A stretch of 64,000 nucleotides of DNA from Leptolyngbya sp. PCC 6406. Its GTDB lineage: Bacteria; Cyanobacteriota; Cyanobacteriia; Phormidesmidales; Phormidesmidaceae. Positions 43,484 through 53,043 of this stretch are shown here, one piece after another (within the stretch, counting starts at the first letter, position 1; every line of letters starts with the position of its first letter). A program made the position numbers and the translations under genes. Below the pieces are notes generated by a model. It was not told where the DNA came from, made no database searches, and saw only the letters and a program-made list of their open reading frames with translations. Where the stretch lies: the NCBI RefSeq assembly GCF_000332095.2, contig NZ_KI913949.1, forward strand, positions 1,148,291-1,212,290. Direction: 5' to 3'.

Positions 43484-46258
43484 CTAACCGTTATTCGTCT
43501 GCAACGAATCGCACTCCCTATCCCGGCTAGCTGCTGCTGGCTTCGTGTGAGGAAAGATGATAGTAACCGTCGTGCCCCTGTCTATGTCACTAGATATTGT
43601 AATGTTACCGTCATGTAAGTCAATACACTTTTTGACAACCACAAGTCCTAATCCTGTACCAGGGATATTGCGGACATTCCTTCCTCGATGAAAGGGTTCA
43701 AACAATTGGTTCTGATCCTGAACTAAAATGCCAATACCTTGGTCGGAAACCTGAATTATCGAACTGTACTTATCAAAATTCAAAAGGCATTTAACTTGAG
43801 CATTTTTAGGTGAATATTTAATGGCATTTGAAAGTATATTTCCCAGGATAGAGCGAAGTAATTTTTCGTCCATATAAACTTTTTGCCACTGCCCTTCACA
43901 CGAAAATTCTAAAGCATGATTAGATGCATCTCCTAGACGGATTTCATCTATAAAATTACGGCAAAATTTTTCCAAATCTAGCCATTGGGGGTTAAATTCC
44001 AACTTTCCAGTTTCTGCTCGGCTGATAGTCAAGATGTCATCAAGAAGCTGCACCATATTTTTGACTGCGTCTTGAATTCGCCGAAAGTTACGCGATCGCT
44101 TCTCGACATCTTCCCAAGCTTGTGGTGAGTTCTCCAGGATTTGAGCGGCGGCTAGAGCTGTACTCAACGGTGTCCGAAATTCATGGGATGCCATTGAGAA
44201 GAAGCGAGTTTTCAGGATGCCCAATTCTTTTTCATGCTCTAATGCGGTATGTAGTTCAATCAATCGTTTTCGTTCAGTAATATCGCGTGAATTAACCACG
44301 ACTTGAGTAGATTCAGAATCGTTGATAAACTTTTGGCTGATCGCTTCCAAACTCCGCCAAGAGCCATCTTTATGCCGACAGTTAAATTCTATCGGCAAAG
44401 CTACCTCTGGATTTTTAGTTGCATTCGTAATGCTGTAGCAGGTTGCAACGAAATCGTCAGAATGGATCAGTTCAAAAAAATTCTTACCAATCAAACTAGA
44501 TGGTGAGTAGCCTAACACTTTCTCAACTGAGGGACTAATGTATTGAATAATGCCATCTGTTTCGAGAATTGCCACAATATCAAGCGCATTTTCGATAAGC
44601 GATCGATAGCGTTCTTCACTCCAACGTAGTTCCTGCTCAATGCGCTTGCGCTCGGTAATATCTCGTTGCACGGCAATCCAATGGGTATAATAACCCGTCC
44701 GGTCTGCCACAGGTACAATACTAAACTCAACCCAAAACTCTGAACCGTCTTTACGGTAGTTGATTACCTCTGCCGTCACCGGTCGCCATTCCAATAGTGA
44801 TGCTCGGACTATATCAAGAACCGCTCGATCGGTTTTAGATCCTTGAAAAATTCGAGGAGTTTTACCGACTACTTCTTCAAGAGAGTAACCTGTTGTTCGG
44901 GTAAACGCTTTGTTGACATACAAAATTCTGGGTCCTGGTTCATCAATCGGCTCAGCTTCTGTAATCAAGACTGCATCATTCGTATTAACAACAACGGACT
45001 GAAGTAACCTTACCTGTTCTGCCTGACGTTTTTGTTCGGTAATATCAGCAACGACAACGACTATTCCATTAATGATTCCATTGCTCTCTCGTAGAGGAGC
45101 AGCCGAAAAAACGATTTCAATCGGAGTGCCATCTTTTTTCCGTCGTCGAATCTCCAAGCTTGGAGGTGTAATCCCTTTCATTACATTATTCTTAATTGTT
45201 TGATATTCCTCTAACTCCTCAGGCATAATTGGGTTGGGTTGATCCAACAGTTCCACTTCAGTCCAGCCAAACATGTGCTCGGCTGCCGGATTCCAAATCC
45301 TAATATGGTTTTTTAAATCTACAGTAAAAATTGCACGAGGTGAAGCAGCAATCAGCGATTGCAGAGTTTGGTTGGTATGACGTAAGGCGGCTTCAGTCTG
45401 CTGACGTTCAATAATTTCTGCTTGAAGTAATACATTGGATTGAGAGAGTTCTCTGGTGCGTTGTTGGACTCGATTTTCTAAATCAATATTCAGGTGCTGC
45501 AACCGCTCATAGAGTTCGGATTGCTGAATAGCGATCGCGATTTGGGTTGACAGTTGTTGCATTAGTTCCACTTCCCAGGGATGCCACTGGCGTGGTTGAC
45601 TGCATTGATGGGCAATCAACAGTCCCCACAGGTAAGGCTGGGTCAGAGGAGGAGCAGAGTTAGGCTGTGGTTGGGTGGGTAATACTGCTGGGTCAGATGC
45701 AGATGGTTCTGCTTTCTCAAGTCTTTCTTGAAGGATGGGCACGACCAATTTTGCTTTTACCCCAAACTGTTGAACAAACTCCGCCAAGCAGGGTTCGACA
45801 TCCAACTGTTCAACATTAGCAATCACGCGAGTTTTGCCTAGGGTATAAGCATGATGATATTCTCTAGGAAACACCTCTTCTGGAAAAGTTTCATCTAAAA
45901 TCGCGATATAATGGGAGGATACTGCTTCAGCAATCGCACTACCTGTAGCGTCTTCCGAAATCTGATAGATTAATACCCGATCAGCTTGTAAAAACTGTTT
46001 GACTTCTGCAACAGTAGTCGCTAATACTTCATCCAAGTCAAGCGATCGCCGGATCTGCTGAGCAATTTGATTAACCAGTCGCTCTCGCTCTGTTTGTTTC
46101 TGTAGCGTGCGCTCTGCTCGTTGTCGCTGGGCGATTTGCCAGGATAGGACGTAATAAATTGCGAAGAGAACAATCGCAAACACCCCAATCCCAAACCCTA
46201 GCGAACTGAGCCAAGGCAAGGAATTGAGAGTTAGATTAATAATCTGACTAAACGCCAT
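43484..46258 (-). CDS. ccaS: CcaS-like cyanobacteriochrome histidine kinase
   Basis: 924 residues. One transmembrane helix (about 14-40); GAF domain (about 60-255); coiled coil with ENRVQQRTRELSQSN; three PAS domains (about 300-415, 420-545, 550-670); HisKA with phospho-His in SMASHEFRTPLSTALA; HATPase with NILSNAIKYSPK and GTGLGLVVVKK. The GAF resembles green/red CcaS: Cys157 in DVEPCLAEFV lies where the bilin-binding Cys sits, followed by KAKLVVPIL and YLWGLLIAHQC. Leu rather than His follows the Cys, and a Pro/Gln-rich insertion of about 30 residues lies between these strands. It likely senses green/red light and phosphorylates the CcaR-like regulator at 52369. An IS separates it from cpcL. 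Confidence 0.8.
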   Translation of the reverse strand: MAFSQIINLTLNSLPWLSSLGFGIGVFAIVLFAIYYVLSWQIAQRQRAERTLQKQTERERLVNQIAQQIRRSLDLDEVLATTVAEVKQFLQADRVLIYQISEDATGSAIAEAVSSHYIAILDETFPEEVFPREYHHAYTLGKTRVIANVEQLDVEPCLAEFVQQFGVKAKLVVPILQERLEKAEPSASDPAVLPTQPQPNSAPPLTQPYLWGLLIAHQCSQPRQWHPWEVELMQQLSTQIAIAIQQSELYERLQHLNIDLENRVQQRTRELSQSNVLLQAEIIERQQTEAALRHTNQTLQSLIAASPRAIFTVDLKNHIRIWNPAAEHMFGWTEVELLDQPNPIMPEELEEYQTIKNNVMKGITPPSLEIRRRKKDGTPIEIVFSAAPLRESNGIINGIVVVVADITEQKRQAEQVRLLQSVVVNTNDAVLITEAEPIDEPGPRILYVNKAFTRTTGYSLEEVVGKTPRIFQGSKTDRAVLDIVRASLLEWRPVTAEVINYRKDGSEFWVEFSIVPVADRTGYYTHWIAVQRDITERKRIEQELRWSEERYRSLIENALDIVAILETDGIIQYISPSVEKVLGYSPSSLIGKNFFELIHSDDFVATCYSITNATKNPEVALPIEFNCRHKDGSWRSLEAISQKFINDSESTQVVVNSRDITERKRLIELHTALEHEKELGILKTRFFSMASHEFRTPLSTALAAAQILENSPQAWEDVEKRSRNFRRIQDAVKNMVQLLDDILTISRAETGKLEFNPQWLDLEKFCRNFIDEIRLGDASNHALEFSCEGQWQKVYMDEKLLRSILGNILSNAIKYSPKNAQVKCLLNFDKYSSIIQVSDQGIGILVQDQNQLFEPFHRGRNVRNIPGTGLGLVVVKKCIDLHDGNITISSDIDRGTTVTIIFPHTKPAAASRDRECDSLQTNNG

Positions 46259-46367
46259 TCTGATTGTATAGGACTAGAATTTTACTCCTTATTATTAAGT
46301 GAGAGGAGTGGATGCAGGGATAGTTTCGGGAAAGAACTTTACATTTTGACTCTTTATCCTCTTCAAA

Positions 46368-47411
46368 AGACCTCTTCAAAAACAAGAAAAATCGGCAGGT
46401 CAATCTGTTTCCAGCCCCTTAAGGCTGAAAATTAGACATACTGAACCCGTAATCGGACCAGTCCGCAGACACACCCGATTACCTCCTCATACATCCGAGA
46501 GCGCATCCGAAATTCCTCCTTGGCAATGCGGAAGATTTTGATGACTCGGATGACGTGCTCCACATAAACTCGCCGTTGGCTGACCTGGCGATTGAAGTCC
46601 TTCTGCGCTTGGGTCAGTTCTCCGCCTGGGGGTTTCTTTATCGCGGTGGTGGTGTTGCGGCGACCAACATAGGCTTTATCCGCTGTAAACCGCAACGCCC
46701 CTGGCAACTCTGCCTGGGCCTGCTCCAAAAATTTGCTATCACTGCGAGGACCGGGTTCACCGATGACCACATCAACAATATCGGTGCCTCCCGGCAGGGT
46801 AATGAGTTGATTCTTGCGGGTATGGCTCTTCTGTTTGCCAGAATAGAAGGCTTCTTGAGCCTCAGAGTCTTGGGGACGGGGAATCGGCTGCTCCCAGGTA
46901 TCCACCAGCAAGTCCCCTGCTGGCAATTCGGCTAACCACTTCTCCAGTTCAGCCCGCTCTACACTGGAGCACTCCTGTTGCCATTGCTCCAACAAGCTCG
47001 CTGGCAGTTGGCTACTCACATAAGGCAGCATCTCGTGAATGTAGTTGCACACGGTAGATTCCGCACAGTCCAGGGTTTCACAGAGGGCTTGCATCGTCCA
47101 GTGTTGTCTCAGGTAGATTAATGTGACCAACAAGCGACATAACACGTTGGCATCCCGTTTACGCCCACCACCCACTTGCCGTTGCCGTCCAGGCCGCTGC
47201 GCCCGATCGAGCTCCTCCGCTTCCTTGAGTTTTGCGATCCGTTGCCACAGTTCCCATAGTGCGTCTGGGCCTAGCCCCACCATTCGCTTCCCTTGCTGTG
47301 GACGCTTATTCAGCAGATGCAGTAGATGATTGAAAAAGTCCTGTTTCATCACCCCTCTCCAGCGACTCCTCTCCCTATTGTGAAACCCTCGGCTTATTCT
47401 TTAAGAGGTCT
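46368..47411 (-). mobile_element. IS5-like insertion sequence between cpcL and ccaS
   Basis: About 1044 bp. AGACCTCTTCAAAAACAAG at the left (46368 onward) matches the reverse complement of the right end, AGACCTCTTAAAGAATAAG (from 47411 inward), with two or three mismatches. It encloses one transposase gene. The right end is 6 bp beyond the cpcL stop codon. A target duplication could not be defined. Left flank repeats CTCTTCAAAA. Confidence 0.75.
46432..47352 (-). CDS. IS5-family-like DDE transposase
   Basis: 306 residues. N-terminal HTH region LRQHWTMQALCETLDCAEST. DDE catalytic set: Asp in AGDLLVDTWEQPI, Asp in FTADKAYVGRR, Glu in RRVYVEHVIRVIK. YSGKQKSHTRKNQLI is typical for this transposase group (HARBI1-like/IS5 type). 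The frame is intact, so the element may be active. It reads in the same direction as the pec operon. Confidence 0.85.
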   Translation of the reverse strand: MMKQDFFNHLLHLLNKRPQQGKRMVGLGPDALWELWQRIAKLKEAEELDRAQRPGRQRQVGGGRKRDANVLCRLLVTLIYLRQHWTMQALCETLDCAESTVCNYIHEMLPYVSSQLPASLLEQWQQECSSVERAELEKWLAELPAGDLLVDTWEQPIPRPQDSEAQEAFYSGKQKSHTRKNQLITLPGGTDIVDVVIGEPGPRSDSKFLEQAQAELPGALRFTADKAYVGRRNTTTAIKKPPGGELTQAQKDFNRQVSQRRVYVEHVIRVIKIFRIAKEEFRMRSRMYEEVIGCVCGLVRLRVQYV

Positions 47412-47417
47412 ATTGGG

Positions 47418-48155
47418 TCAAGAAGAGAAAAGCCGGTTGGTCTCTGAAAATAGCAGCAAAAAGATAATGATCATAAAGGTAATTAGCATTACTCTAGATG
47501 CTCTAGTCCAATTTGCCCGTTGCATAAAAGCTTGCAGTTCAAACTTCTCAAATTGATCAAATAAACCTGTGGGTAATGGTTTCGGAAGTTTGTCACGGTA
47601 GTCCGCACCATAGCGAGGCATCCGAGCAAAAGGCAACTCACCTTGAACACGCTGGGTCAAAATGCGCCGCCGCTGATAAGGGACAATATTGTCACCAAAC
47701 CGCTCTAGATACTCCTCTGTGTTGACCAGAGCATCAACAAAGCCCTTTAGCCCTTTCGTCGCCAACACAATTGACCAGGAAAATGTCTCTCGATTATTGT
47801 AAATCGAACGGCCGAGGACACGCTGAATTACCATTTCAATAAATCGGTAGTTACTATTAACCTCGTAATTCAAGCGCCGAAATGAGTCAGATAAAACTAA
47901 CCCACGAATAAAGTCTCGAACTGTAATTTGACGAGTTCGTAGCTGCGACTCAAGTGCAACTTGGCGGTGGTAAGCAATGCATTGTTGCTCGTTAAATATC
48001 TGTCTATATGCTGACCAAATCAGCATATCCATTTCAGAAGAATCCAACAAGTCATCCATCGAATAAATTCTAGGGGTCTCATCTCCGGGCACTTCAAACC
48101 CTTGAACTCGTTGATTTTGACTGGAAGGGGTATAGGTGAGAGAAGGAATTGTCAT
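47418..48155 (-). CDS. cpcL: CpcL (CpcG2-type) rod-membrane phycobilisome linker
   Basis: 245 residues. N-terminal linker domain of CpcG type: PSLTYTPSSQNQRVQGFEVP, RQITVRDFIRGLVLSDSFRR, YRFIEMVIQRVLGR, then VPYQRRRILTQRVQGELPFA. Unlike rod-core CpcG, the C-terminus ends in a hydrophobic helix (about 222-237, RVMLITFMIIIFLLLF), the mark of CpcL, which anchors rod-shaped phycobilisomes in the thylakoid membrane and serves mainly photosystem I. Last gene of the pec row, 27 bp after pecF, so probably cotranscribed with it. The IS lies just behind it. Confidence 0.92.
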   Translation of the reverse strand: MTIPSLTYTPSSQNQRVQGFEVPGDETPRIYSMDDLLDSSEMDMLIWSAYRQIFNEQQCIAYHRQVALESQLRTRQITVRDFIRGLVLSDSFRRLNYEVNSNYRFIEMVIQRVLGRSIYNNRETFSWSIVLATKGLKGFVDALVNTEEYLERFGDNIVPYQRRRILTQRVQGELPFARMPRYGADYRDKLPKPLPTGLFDQFEKFELQAFMQRANWTRASRVMLITFMIIIFLLLFSETNRLFSS

Positions 48156-48182: not shown

Positions 48183-48791
48183 TTAGGTGGAAAAAAGAAG
48201 ATGAATCCGTTGTTGAACGACGCGATCGTTCTCTTGCACTAATGCTTGCTGGAGTGCATTGATCGCCTCATCTGTGGCAATTTCCCCTAGGGAAACAGCA
48301 GCAGCATATCGAAGTGCCCAGTCTTCGGTATGCAGTAATGCCCAGATGAGTTTATCGATCGCCTGTGAGTGATGATTGCAGCGTGAAGGGTGGGAGCGCA
48401 GCATTTTACCCAATCCCCGTGCGGCAATCCGGCGCACATTCCCCTGACAATGGTTGGCAATCTCAACTCCGACCATATTAATCAGTAATAACAAGGCACG
48501 ATCATCCCCAACATTTGCCAATATTTGGACAATTCGTGCTTGCATTCCGTGATCAATACTGTCATCAAAAGCAGCTATGAGCGGTTCAACACTGTCGGGT
48601 GCAAACTGTTCTAATGCCTGGGCAGACATTGACGCAATCTCAGTGTAATGGTGATCCAGAAGTTGAATTAGAGCTAGAATTGTCGATTGAGTACGGTTTT
48701 CAACCAGAATTCTCAGCCACAGTGCTGCCTCTGTGGGTGTAGTCGTGTTGCGGATTTGATAAATGATTTGCTTGGAGTTGGGAGATGACAT
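48183..48791 (-). CDS. pecF: Phycoviolobilin lyase-isomerase subunit PecF
   Basis: 202 residues of HEAT-like repeats (MSAQALEQFAPDSVEPLIAA, RYAAAVSLGEIATDEAINAL). Carries NHCQGN at residues 113-118, the motif known as essential for the isomerase activity of PecF and absent from plain CpcF. With PecE it attaches phycocyanobilin to Cys84 of PecA and isomerises it to phycoviolobilin. The order pecE-pecF after pecC is the classical one. The spacing to cpcL is 27 bp. Confidence 0.93.
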   Translation of the reverse strand: MSSPNSKQIIYQIRNTTTPTEAALWLRILVENRTQSTILALIQLLDHHYTEIASMSAQALEQFAPDSVEPLIAAFDDSIDHGMQARIVQILANVGDDRALLLLINMVGVEIANHCQGNVRRIAARGLGKMLRSHPSRCNHHSQAIDKLIWALLHTEDWALRYAAAVSLGEIATDEAINALQQALVQENDRVVQQRIHLLFST

Positions 48792-48859: not shown

Positions 48860-49642
48860 TCAAAGTTGTAATAGCAGTCCATCAATCGCCTGAAACAAGA
48901 TTTGCGTCGCCTTCTGTTTTTCGGTGGTTGAACGATCACTTTCCAAAACGGCTTCTAAAATGCGTTTTAGATTTAATAGCTTGAGACTGTTAGCAATATT
49001 GGCTTGCAAAATCGCCTGAGCTGCTTCCAGATGCCCGATCGCACCCAAGTCAAAGACCGCCGCCCAACGCAAATAGGGATTGATATGGTTCAGATTCTGG
49101 ATAATTCGCTCCAGATATTGGGGTTGCTGAGTCATTTGATAGTAATAGCGAGCTGCCGCACATTGAATACGTTCTGAGGAATCCTGTAAAAATGGCTTCA
49201 CATCAGATAACGCTTCTTGCACTTGCAACTGCCCTAACGCTTCAATCAATGCCTCATAAGGTTGGGGTTCACCAGAACGCAACAAATGCAACAAGGGGAC
49301 AACCGCACGGCGATCACCAATTGCTGAAAGAGCTTGAATCACCGCTTCCCGGAACTGTAAATCCTCCTCGCACCAGAGGGCATCCACGAGCGCGGGCACT
49401 GCCTCAACCTGTTTGAGTTGTCCCAGGGCACGGGCTGCCTGCCGCCGCAGGGGATACCCACCCTGAACCGTCCGATAGCCGTCATCGTGGAGTAAGTCGC
49501 AGAGCACTTCCCCGGCCACTTGAATTTGGTGTTTGCCCAACCACCAAGCTGCATAATATCGAAGCTGGTTATCATTTCCTTGGAGAGCTGCGATCGCTGA
49601 CTCAGCCGAGAGGACAGGTTCTGCAGAAGTCGTTACAGTCAT
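48860..49642 (-). CDS. pecE: Phycoviolobilin lyase-isomerase subunit PecE
   Basis: 260 residues, HEAT-repeat lyase of the CpcE/PecE type: NQLRYYAAWWLGKHQIQVAG, GGYPLRRQAARALGQLKQV, REAVIQALSAIGDRRAVVPL, INPYLRWAAVFDLGAIGHLE. Forms a heterodimer with PecF. Position between pecC and pecF and the partner's NHCQGN motif distinguish it from cpcE. It precedes pecF by 68 bp. Confidence 0.92.
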   Translation of the reverse strand: MTVTTSAEPVLSAESAIAALQGNDNQLRYYAAWWLGKHQIQVAGEVLCDLLHDDGYRTVQGGYPLRRQAARALGQLKQVEAVPALVDALWCEEDLQFREAVIQALSAIGDRRAVVPLLHLLRSGEPQPYEALIEALGQLQVQEALSDVKPFLQDSSERIQCAAARYYYQMTQQPQYLERIIQNLNHINPYLRWAAVFDLGAIGHLEAAQAILQANIANSLKLLNLKRILEAVLESDRSTTEKQKATQILFQAIDGLLLQL

Positions 49643-49825: not shown

Positions 49826-50656
49826 TTAGACGGGCGTGATTCGAACGATTTTGCCGCCGCGTTGGTGAATTTCTTGATACCGAGTAGATAGTTGATCAAA
49901 CGGCACGGCATACATCGTTCGACTCCGACGAACCGTAACCGAGGTCTTACTCGCTCCCTGAATAACTTCCACCATAAACACTCGCTTGTCTCCCCGTACA
50001 GGAGTCATTCCCAACCCAGTAAGGAATTCTAGTGAGCTGAAGGATGAGCTTGGCGGCACAATGGCATTGGACAGATTCAATGCAACTTGCTGCCGTAAGC
50101 GAGAGTTTTTGCCACCCCCTTGAGCATTGTCACTGCTGCCATTTCCCCGATACAACCGAAACAACCGATTAAATCCTACCTGTTTCATGCCAGGAATTGA
50201 TTGAAATCCTCGGTAGTAAGGCACAATGAAATCGCCAAAGGCATTGTTGTATTCAGAGCTTTCAAAGTAAGATGCGATCTCTGTCGCATAACCTTGGGAG
50301 GCATAGAGATCAACATGATAAGCAATTTCTGCTTGATCGTAGGGCGCGCGTCCCAACAGATGCTTGTAGTTCAATTCAATGAATCGAACCTGAGAATTAC
50401 GGTAGAAGAAGCGTTCTTTATAGTACTCTGACTGGGCTAGGGCCTCAATGAACTGACGCACATTAATTTTGCCATTTCTCAGTAATGCCTCAGCACTGGC
50501 AAATGCCTCGCTGAGGGCTAGACCTTCCCGTCCAAATACATGGGTATAGGCAGATCGAAAAACCTGCTGCAAATCGTCTTCATTCCAATTTTGGCGAAGT
50601 TCAACTTTCTCATCAATCACTTCACCAATCCCCAGTCGAGATTCCATTAAGCTCAT
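49826..50656 (-). CDS. pecC: Phycoerythrocyanin-associated rod linker
   Basis: 276 residues. Residues about 20-185 are a phycobilisome linker domain ([66 protein letters not shown]). About 225-276 is a CpcD-like cap ([17 protein letters not shown] ... [11 protein letters not shown]). It attaches PEC hexamers to the distal end of the rod. The call pecC rather than cpcC rests on its place between pecA and pecE. Confidence 0.88.
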
Positions 50657-50963: not shown

Positions 50964-51452
50964 TTAGCTCAATGCATTGATGGCATAGTTGAGGTAGATG
51001 TTAGCTTCGCCACCCACATCTCCAGACAGACCATGGTTGTCCCGAACAAATTCAAGTGCAGCAACATACCAGCTTGGTGACAAACCGAGAGCGGCATTAA
51101 ACTCTTTCACACCCGCAATCACATACTCATCTAATGGCCCAGTACCACCAACTACACAGCAATAGCTGATAGTCCGAAGATAATGGCTGATGTCACGTAC
51201 GCACTTGGACTTGCCTTCAGGCGTAGAGGCATACTGAGAGCCCTGCATTTGGGTCGTATAGGGGAACTTTTGATACACATGGTTCGCGGCCGCTTCAGCC
51301 CACGCTTGACCATTTTGGCTGAACGCTTTGGCTGCATCTAAACCAGCTTTAGCACGGTTAAATCGACCGAAAATTGCTTGCATCTCGGTATTACTCAGGT
51401 AAGCACCACGAGAATCAGCAGCAGAGATTGCCTCAGTCAAAGGGGTTTTCAT
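50964..51452 (-). CDS. pecA: Phycoerythrocyanin alpha subunit
   Basis: 162 residues, globin-like biliprotein fold. [19 protein letters not shown] at the N-terminus and [20 protein letters not shown] match PecA. Cys84 in [14 protein letters not shown] carries phycoviolobilin (absorbs near 570 nm). [18 protein letters not shown] is also typical. Pairs with PecB into hexamers at rod tips, extending absorption to yellow-green light. 70 bp downstream of pecB. Confidence 0.95.
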
Positions 51453-51522: not shown

Positions 51523-52041
51523 TTAAGCAACAGATGCAGCAGCTCGGTCAAAGTAACCAGCCAGTTCTGACATAAGGGACTTGCAGTCGCCTTGGGTAAT
51601 GCCATTCGAGTCGTTGGCGATGGCAAGAGCTGCATCTTTCATTTTCCCAATACCGGAAGCAACGGTTGCACCTGGTGTGCCCAGAGCTTGGTAGGTTTCC
51701 CGTAAGCCATTCAGGCAGCGATCGTCCATTACACTGGCATCACCAGACAGCATCGAATAGGTGACATAACGCAGAATGAAGCCTAAATCACGAAGGCAGG
51801 CGGCCTGATTACGATGGTGAAAGCAAGCACCACCGGGACCAAAGACTTGGGGTTGATCAGCAACCAAAGCCCGGTAAGCATTAGATGTAATTGCTGCTGC
51901 GTTGCTAGTCAGACGGTTGACCACATCTAACCGCTTGTTGCTATCAGCAACCATTGCAGATAAAGCGTTCACTTGGGTATCACTCAGGTATGAACCCTGG
52001 CGATCGGCTTGTTCAACAACTCTGGAAAAAGCATCCAACAT
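51523..52041 (-). CDS. pecB: Phycoerythrocyanin beta subunit
   Basis: 172 residues from ATG 52041. [19 protein letters not shown] and [19 protein letters not shown] identify PecB; CpcB has a different sequence around residues 65-80. Bilin sites Cys82 and Cys153 ([12 protein letters not shown]) carry phycocyanobilin. Asn72 methylation site of CpcB is not obvious here (Ala/Cys area). First gene of the operon, divergent from the CcaR-like regulator; tandem boxes lie upstream. Confidence 0.95.
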
Positions 52042-52133
52042 AGTGTAAAGTCTCCTAATTTTTCTGGGGTCTGTGTAAGAAGGTTTTGCCCTCAATCCAC
52101 ATGAGTTAGGAGCTTACGGCGTGAAAGGTAAGA

Positions 52134-52167
52134 AAATCGGTACGGAAGTCGTAAAGAAATCGGAAAG
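52134..52167 (-). promoter_or_regulatory. Tandem G-box-like CcaR sites upstream of pecB
   Basis: On the minus strand CTTTCCGATTT (52167-52157) is followed directly by CTTTACGACTT (52156-52146) and, after one base, by CGTACCGATTT (52144-52134). The first fits CTTTNCNATTT, the CcaR direct-repeat motif as I recall it; the second has one mismatch; the third is degenerate. They end 92 bp before the pecB ATG and about 200 bp before the regulator gene. Confidence 0.72.
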
Positions 52168-52368: not shown

Positions 52369-53043
52369 ATGAGGATCCTTTTAGTTGAAGATGATATTCC
52401 CCTGGCAGAAACACTGGCAGAGGCCATGACTGACCATCTGTATGTTGTTGACTTAGCAGAGGATGGTGAGCAAGGCTGGGATTGCGTCAAAGCCTTTGAC
52501 TACGATCTCATGTTGTTGGATGTAATGTTACCAGAAACAGACGGGCTGACTCTGTGCCAACGACTGCGATCCCACGGTTATCAAATTCCAGTGTTGATGA
52601 TTACAGCACGAGACACAATTAGCGACAAAATTACCGGGTTGGATGCCGGAGCTGATGATTACATCATCAAGCCAATTGATCTAGGAGAATTGTTTGCTCG
52701 CATTCGTGCTCTTCTCCGACGAGGCAGCAATATCACTCCTCCCATCCTAGAATGGGGTGATTTACAATTGAATCCCAGCACTTATGAAGTAAGTTACAAT
52801 CACCATCCTCTCCGGCTAACACCTAAGGAATTTAGTTTGTTAGAATTACTACTACGAAATAATCGCCGAGTTCTTAGCCGTAGCGTTATTATCGAACATC
52901 TCTGGAAAACCGAATCTTCTCCAGATGAACATACAATAAAAGTCCACATCAGAAGCTTAAGAAAAAAGCTCAAAGCCACTGGCGCAGATGAAGATTTTAT
53001 TGAGACGGTTCATAGCATTGGCTATCGTCTTAAGTCTCTTTAA
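52369..53043 (+). CDS. ccaR: CcaR-like OmpR-family response regulator
   Basis: 224 residues. Receiver domain: RILLVEDDIPLAETLAEAM, phospho-Asp in LMLLDVMLPETDGLTLC (about residue 51), Lys in YIIKPIDLGELFARIR. DNA-binding winged helix: LRLTPKEFSLLELLLRNNRR, VLSRSVIIEHLWK, HTIKVHIRSLRKKL. The sequence is very close in pattern to CcaR of Synechocystis (e.g. TARDTISDKITGLDAGADDY, STYEVSYN). It activates cpcL/pec-type genes under green light after phosphorylation by CcaS. Divergent from pecB with shared promoter. Confidence 0.87.
   Translation: MRILLVEDDIPLAETLAEAMTDHLYVVDLAEDGEQGWDCVKAFDYDLMLLDVMLPETDGLTLCQRLRSHGYQIPVLMITARDTISDKITGLDAGADDYIIKPIDLGELFARIRALLRRGSNITPPILEWGDLQLNPSTYEVSYNHHPLRLTPKEFSLLELLLRNNRRVLSRSVIIEHLWKTESSPDEHTIKVHIRSLRKKLKATGADEDFIETVHSIGYRLKSL

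Follow-up and report, generated by a model that had tools for sequence, protein, structure and literature searches.

The window, a 64,000-nucleotide stretch of the Leptolyngbya sp. PCC 6406 genome, contains an antenna operon in the order pecB-pecA-pecC-pecE-pecF-cpcL, with an IS5-family transposase gene and then ccaS coming next; this whole series lies on the minus strand, and the response regulator gene ccaR is divergent from pecB. Operon, sensor and regulator genes are all open reading frames free of internal stops:

51523..52041, minus strand: pecB, phycoerythrocyanin (PEC) beta; nearest solved chain 2c7j_B, 309 bits versus 249 for the best phycocyanin
50964..51452, minus strand: pecA, phycoerythrocyanin alpha; nearest solved chain 2c7j_A, 324 bits versus 236 for phycocyanin
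49826..50656, minus strand: pecC, rod linker with a CpcD domain (PF00427 and PF01383)
48860..49642, minus strand: pecE, bilin lyase subunit (CpcE-family, with HEAT repeats)
48183..48791, minus strand: pecF, bilin lyase-isomerase subunit (NHCQGN motif in the translation)
47418..48155, minus strand: cpcL, rod linker (PF00427) with a hydrophobic C-terminal tail, read from the translation
43484..46258, minus strand: ccaS, GAF-PAS3-histidine kinase; nearest solved GAF domains those of the histidine kinase 8k9o and RcaE 7ckv
52369..53043, plus strand: ccaR, OmpR/PhoB-type response regulator (PF00072 receiver and PF00486 winged helix), divergent from pecB

The assignment as a PEC operon follows from the presence of both PEC subunits, alpha and beta, and of a PecE/PecF isomerising lyase that retains NHCQGN, a motif on which isomerisation by Fischerella PecF depends (PMC2246261). 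The CcaS product has an N-terminal membrane helix (called by eye), three PAS regions and a kinase, and its Cys157, within a conserved GAF segment, is followed by Leu, a pairing reported for CcaS and RcaE but not for RfpA (PMC9415938). A CcaS lacking the chromophore Cys was considered and ruled out, as Cys157 lies in EPCLAEF, which aligns with the RcaE segment. The protein is thus a kinase of light-sensor type and a predicted CcaS photosensor. In a tree that was built without the characterised Synechocystis CcaR, the regulator, a candidate CcaR orthologue, falls among the ccaR genes found beside PEC or CpcL operons, and the curated families matched by its product include no CcaR model. Between cpcL and ccaS lies a single-copy IS5-family element (window 46360-47411; transposase 46432-47352) whose terminal repeats start AGACCTCTT. 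The cpcL-ccaS gap in the nearest relative, L031, is only ~70 bp, and the insertion may therefore change sensor expression.

Upstream of the operon, adjoining ccaR and on the operon's coding strand, is an array of short direct repeats, followed by promoter-like elements:

52157..52167, minus strand: CcaR box 1, CTTTCCGATTT; identical to the first half of the G-box and the best conserved element in 44 aligned sites
52146..52156, minus strand: CcaR box 2, CTTTACGACTT; adjoins box 1 at an 11-bp step and matches the second half of the G-box at 10/11
52134..52144, minus strand: CcaR box 3, CGTACCGATTT; 12-bp step from box 2, score peak at +23
52123..52133, minus strand: weak CcaR box 4, TCTTACCTTTC; second downstream score peak, at +34
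52111..52116, minus strand: probable -10 element, TAAGCT; A at +52 and T at +56 in 42/44 sites
52050..52058, minus strand: ribosome-binding-like sequence, TTAGGAGAC, ahead of the pecB ATG at 52041

The minus strand from 52167 to 52146 reads CTTTCCGATTTCTTTACGACTT and shares 21 of its 22 bases with the Synechocystis CcaR G-box CTTTCCGATTTCTTTACGATTT, a published 22-bp element of two tandem 11-mers (PMC8256508); the single mismatch falls in box 2 (ACGACTT here, ACGATTT in Synechocystis). The original prediction had placed two directly adjacent 11-bp repeats on the pecB strand, with letters and coordinates that proved exact, and its assignment of them to the CcaR direct-repeat motif is borne out by this near-identity. 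It had also described a degenerate third repeat. This repeat is real, sharing 9 of its 11 bases with box 1, but its step from box 2 is 12 rather than 11 bp, with one spacer base (C at 52145) between the two. The fourth box (52133-52123) was absent from that account, which had therefore seen the layout only in part. From 52167 downwards, the full intergenic order is CTTTCCGATTT-CTTTACGACTT-C-CGTACCGATTT-TCTTACCTTTC, then ACGCCG, TAAGCT and the pecB ATG.

Conservation of the box was assessed in CcaR relatives picked solely for their protein similarity, both in 390 genomes of the class and in named genomes, with the gene surroundings fetched afterwards. Among class relatives at least 67.5% identical to CcaR, 37 of 40 have a box matching at least 17 of 22 positions no more than 700 bp away on the strand of the operon; the remaining three (L195, L200 and L215) have none within that distance. 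A wider set of 56 loci, composed of the class relatives, named-genome loci, loci partly chosen by pattern and the window itself, has the box in 50; one more locus, L035, has a 20/22 box that lies 1.4 kb upstream. The box is missing from seven more distant paralogues (49-66% identity). The genes behind the box belong to PEC, CpcL-only or other linker operons. The PEC set with a divergent ccaR relative comprises eleven loci other than the window, ten of them distinct (L178 and L033 are apparently the same record), and all ten distinct loci besides the window keep 19-20 of the 22 G-box bases on the pecB strand, which is the conservation that the original prediction had named as a check on itself. 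Its further claim, that the PEC operon stands under the divergent regulator, is supported by this association of box and ccaR in 37/40 relatives and in every other PEC locus compared. A search of three same-genus genomes found no close CcaR, but these genomes are only 61-87% complete, and gain by transfer is accordingly not argued here.

An alignment of 44 non-identical sites indicates that conservation extends well past the 22 bases of the G-box, with CTnACCnnTTT at +23 to +33 and CCTTAC from +34; the TTAC core of box 4 is nearly invariant. When each offset is scored with weights derived from boxes 1 and 2 of 32 distinct sites, two downstream peaks appear, each with z 5.8, at +23 and +34, in addition to the main peaks at 0 and +11. 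The array ends ~6 bases ahead of the -10-like TAAGCT, beyond which conservation falls to background level. The pecB promoter is most likely a -10 element without a normal -35, and transcription would start near 52104. It is possible, if rather doubtful, that boxes 1 and 2 are the sole operator and that boxes 3 and 4 are promoter sequence kept for RNA polymerase contacts. The CcaR publications consulted name only the 22-bp G-box, and boxes 3 and 4 match the box weights much worse than boxes 1 and 2 (mean score -1.8, versus 15.3 and 11.8), so they are best described as degenerate repeats. Against this, the downstream peaks coincide with the next box steps, the conserved TTTCCTTAC is unlike a -35 hexamer, and a sister array elsewhere in the same genome has box-like repeats at the same offsets as boxes 3 and 4.

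That sister array accompanies the closest same-genome CcaR paralogue, a response regulator 62% identical to CcaR (G000:C1:973102-973770). In the corresponding locus, L230, the genome's own second tandem 11-mer array, CTTCCCGATTTCTTCCCGAGTA (L230:3152-3173, minus strand), lies near this CcaR-like regulator (L230:7100-7771, minus strand). The array has a variant core, CTTCCCGATTT, and stands ahead of an ABC solute-binding protein gene, with a CHASE-domain histidine kinase gene alongside. L234, L235 and L237 have comparable arrays ahead of a gene of this kind, and in them a -10-like hexamer sits at +50. As the closest paralogue, with a similar tandem array ~4 kb away that marks the pecB and L230 sites as related, the 62% regulator is the natural rival to the divergent CcaR for control of the pecB boxes. 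Such control is nonetheless very unlikely, since the core of the L230 array differs and since residues 192/195 are Val/Arg in 54 of 54 CcaR relatives but mostly Ala/Lys in the sister set; the pecB box carries the CTTT core, the one that accompanies ccaR. These differences suggest a base-residue code in which letter 4 of the box may be linked to residues 192 and 195.

Other CcaR-like regulators have related boxes of their own. Regulators 68-71% identical to CcaR at L215:1574 and L228:5862 are without an upstream CTTT box; instead, CTTCCC arrays follow downstream of their genes, and the tree places both among the sister regulators. In other cyanobacteria, a further CcaR-like regulator, encoded next to a kinase (L231:2688, L232:5938, L233:5883 and L236:4997), has CTTTCCGA(G/C)TTCTTTACTTTTT boxes within a few kb. 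An Fe2+-dependent dioxygenase and a PepSY membrane protein are among the products encoded nearby, which suggests metal control by these regulators. A search of titles and abstracts in the RppA/nickel-regulator literature found no mention of 11-bp repeats. A combined reading seems about as likely as not, in which the working CcaR operator would extend beyond the 22-bp G-box as a four-repeat array (11-12-11) fused to the -10 element, and in which a wider CcaR/RppA-like clade would use related 11-bp boxes at a nearly equal distance from the -10, with letter 4 of the box (T/C) covarying with residues 192 and 195.

The pecB site stands apart from the rest of the genome. A degenerate form of the 22-mer, allowing up to two mismatches, has one match in 5.78 Mb, the pecB site itself, with no mismatches; the reversed control at the same loose setting also gives one match, and the weight therefore rests on the match being perfect. 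A 40-base array pattern allowing up to three mismatches has the pecB site as its sole genome match, and its reversed control has none, but this pattern was loosened until the pecB site fell within it, and so demonstrates uniqueness rather than an independent match. No second CcaR array was found genome-wide with the 40-base pattern, and no further CcaR target is consequently proposed. Among 252 dinucleotide-shuffled upstream regions the best G-box match is 16/22, and none reaches 17. A position-weight scan of the window, with the array's own site left out of the weights, ranks the array first. The pecB-ccaR intergenic region had no match in a search of plasmids. Chance resemblance or a functionless remnant has next to no probability, given a site that is unique in the genome and conserved across families in strand and position, and both readings were dropped with nothing counted in their favor.

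On this evidence, the repeats are very probably the operator through which a CcaSR green/red switch would control the PEC and CpcL antenna operon in chromatic acclimation type 7. Regulators of the OmpR/PhoB type bind direct repeats as head-to-tail dimers, and four repeats at an 11-12-11 step would fit two such dimers. By analogy with published CcaSR work, CcaS would phosphorylate CcaR in green or yellow light, and binding of the phosphorylated CcaR to the array would be light-dependent. One head-to-tail CcaR dimer would occupy boxes 1 and 2, and a second, one base further on, may occupy boxes 3 and 4. Because the array takes up the place of the -35 and runs up to the -10, bound CcaR may stand in for the -35 element and draw in RNA polymerase in the manner of PhoB at pho boxes; the layout thus suggests activation by -35 replacement.

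The core of this finding is already known, since both the G-box and CcaSR control of PEC and CpcL have been published. For Leptolyngbya sp. PCC 6406 itself, a PEC and CpcL operon governed by CcaSR in chromatic acclimation type 7 (CA7) has been reported (Hirose 2019, as cited in PMC12461855 and PMC9415938), and the locus described here would likewise place PEC and cpcL genes under CcaSR. The pecB repeats, as a near letter-perfect CcaR site, are therefore a solid but unremarkable case of a light-acclimation switch already in the literature, and their contribution is to confirm membership of the PEC operon in the CcaSR regulon from sequence alone. The four-repeat geometry seen across the 44 sites is possibly undescribed, and so is the way in which a sister regulator, with a differing box and differing recognition residues, partly reuses it. 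Neither the geometry nor the sister boxes were found in the open-access text searched, a body of literature that excludes the primary G-box and CA7 papers. For the many laboratories working with CcaSR in optogenetics, tighter or orthogonal promoters would be easier to design with the four-repeat layout and the candidate specificity residues at hand, and, if the proposed correspondence is true, box letter 4 and residues 192/195 would amount to a readable DNA code for light and stress switches.

Other systems also bear comparison with the pecB site. PhoB is a regulator of the OmpR family whose pho box consists of 11-bp direct repeats that replace the -35 element; the pecB array differs in its box sequence, in having four repeats at an 11-12-11 step, and in that it would answer to light rather than phosphate. 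The G-box at cpcG2/cpcL in Synechocystis sp. PCC 6803 (PMC8256508, PMC12461855) is also a pair of tandem 11-mers upstream of an antenna gene and beside a CcaSR cluster, although the first gene behind the box is cpcG2/cpcL there and pecB here. The RppA-like sister regulators resemble the pecB site in their tandem 11-bp CTT(T/C)CCGATTT boxes and in the nearly equal distance to a -10-like hexamer, but differ in their CTTCCC core, their recognition residues, their ABC solute-binding protein target and their CHASE-domain kinase gene.
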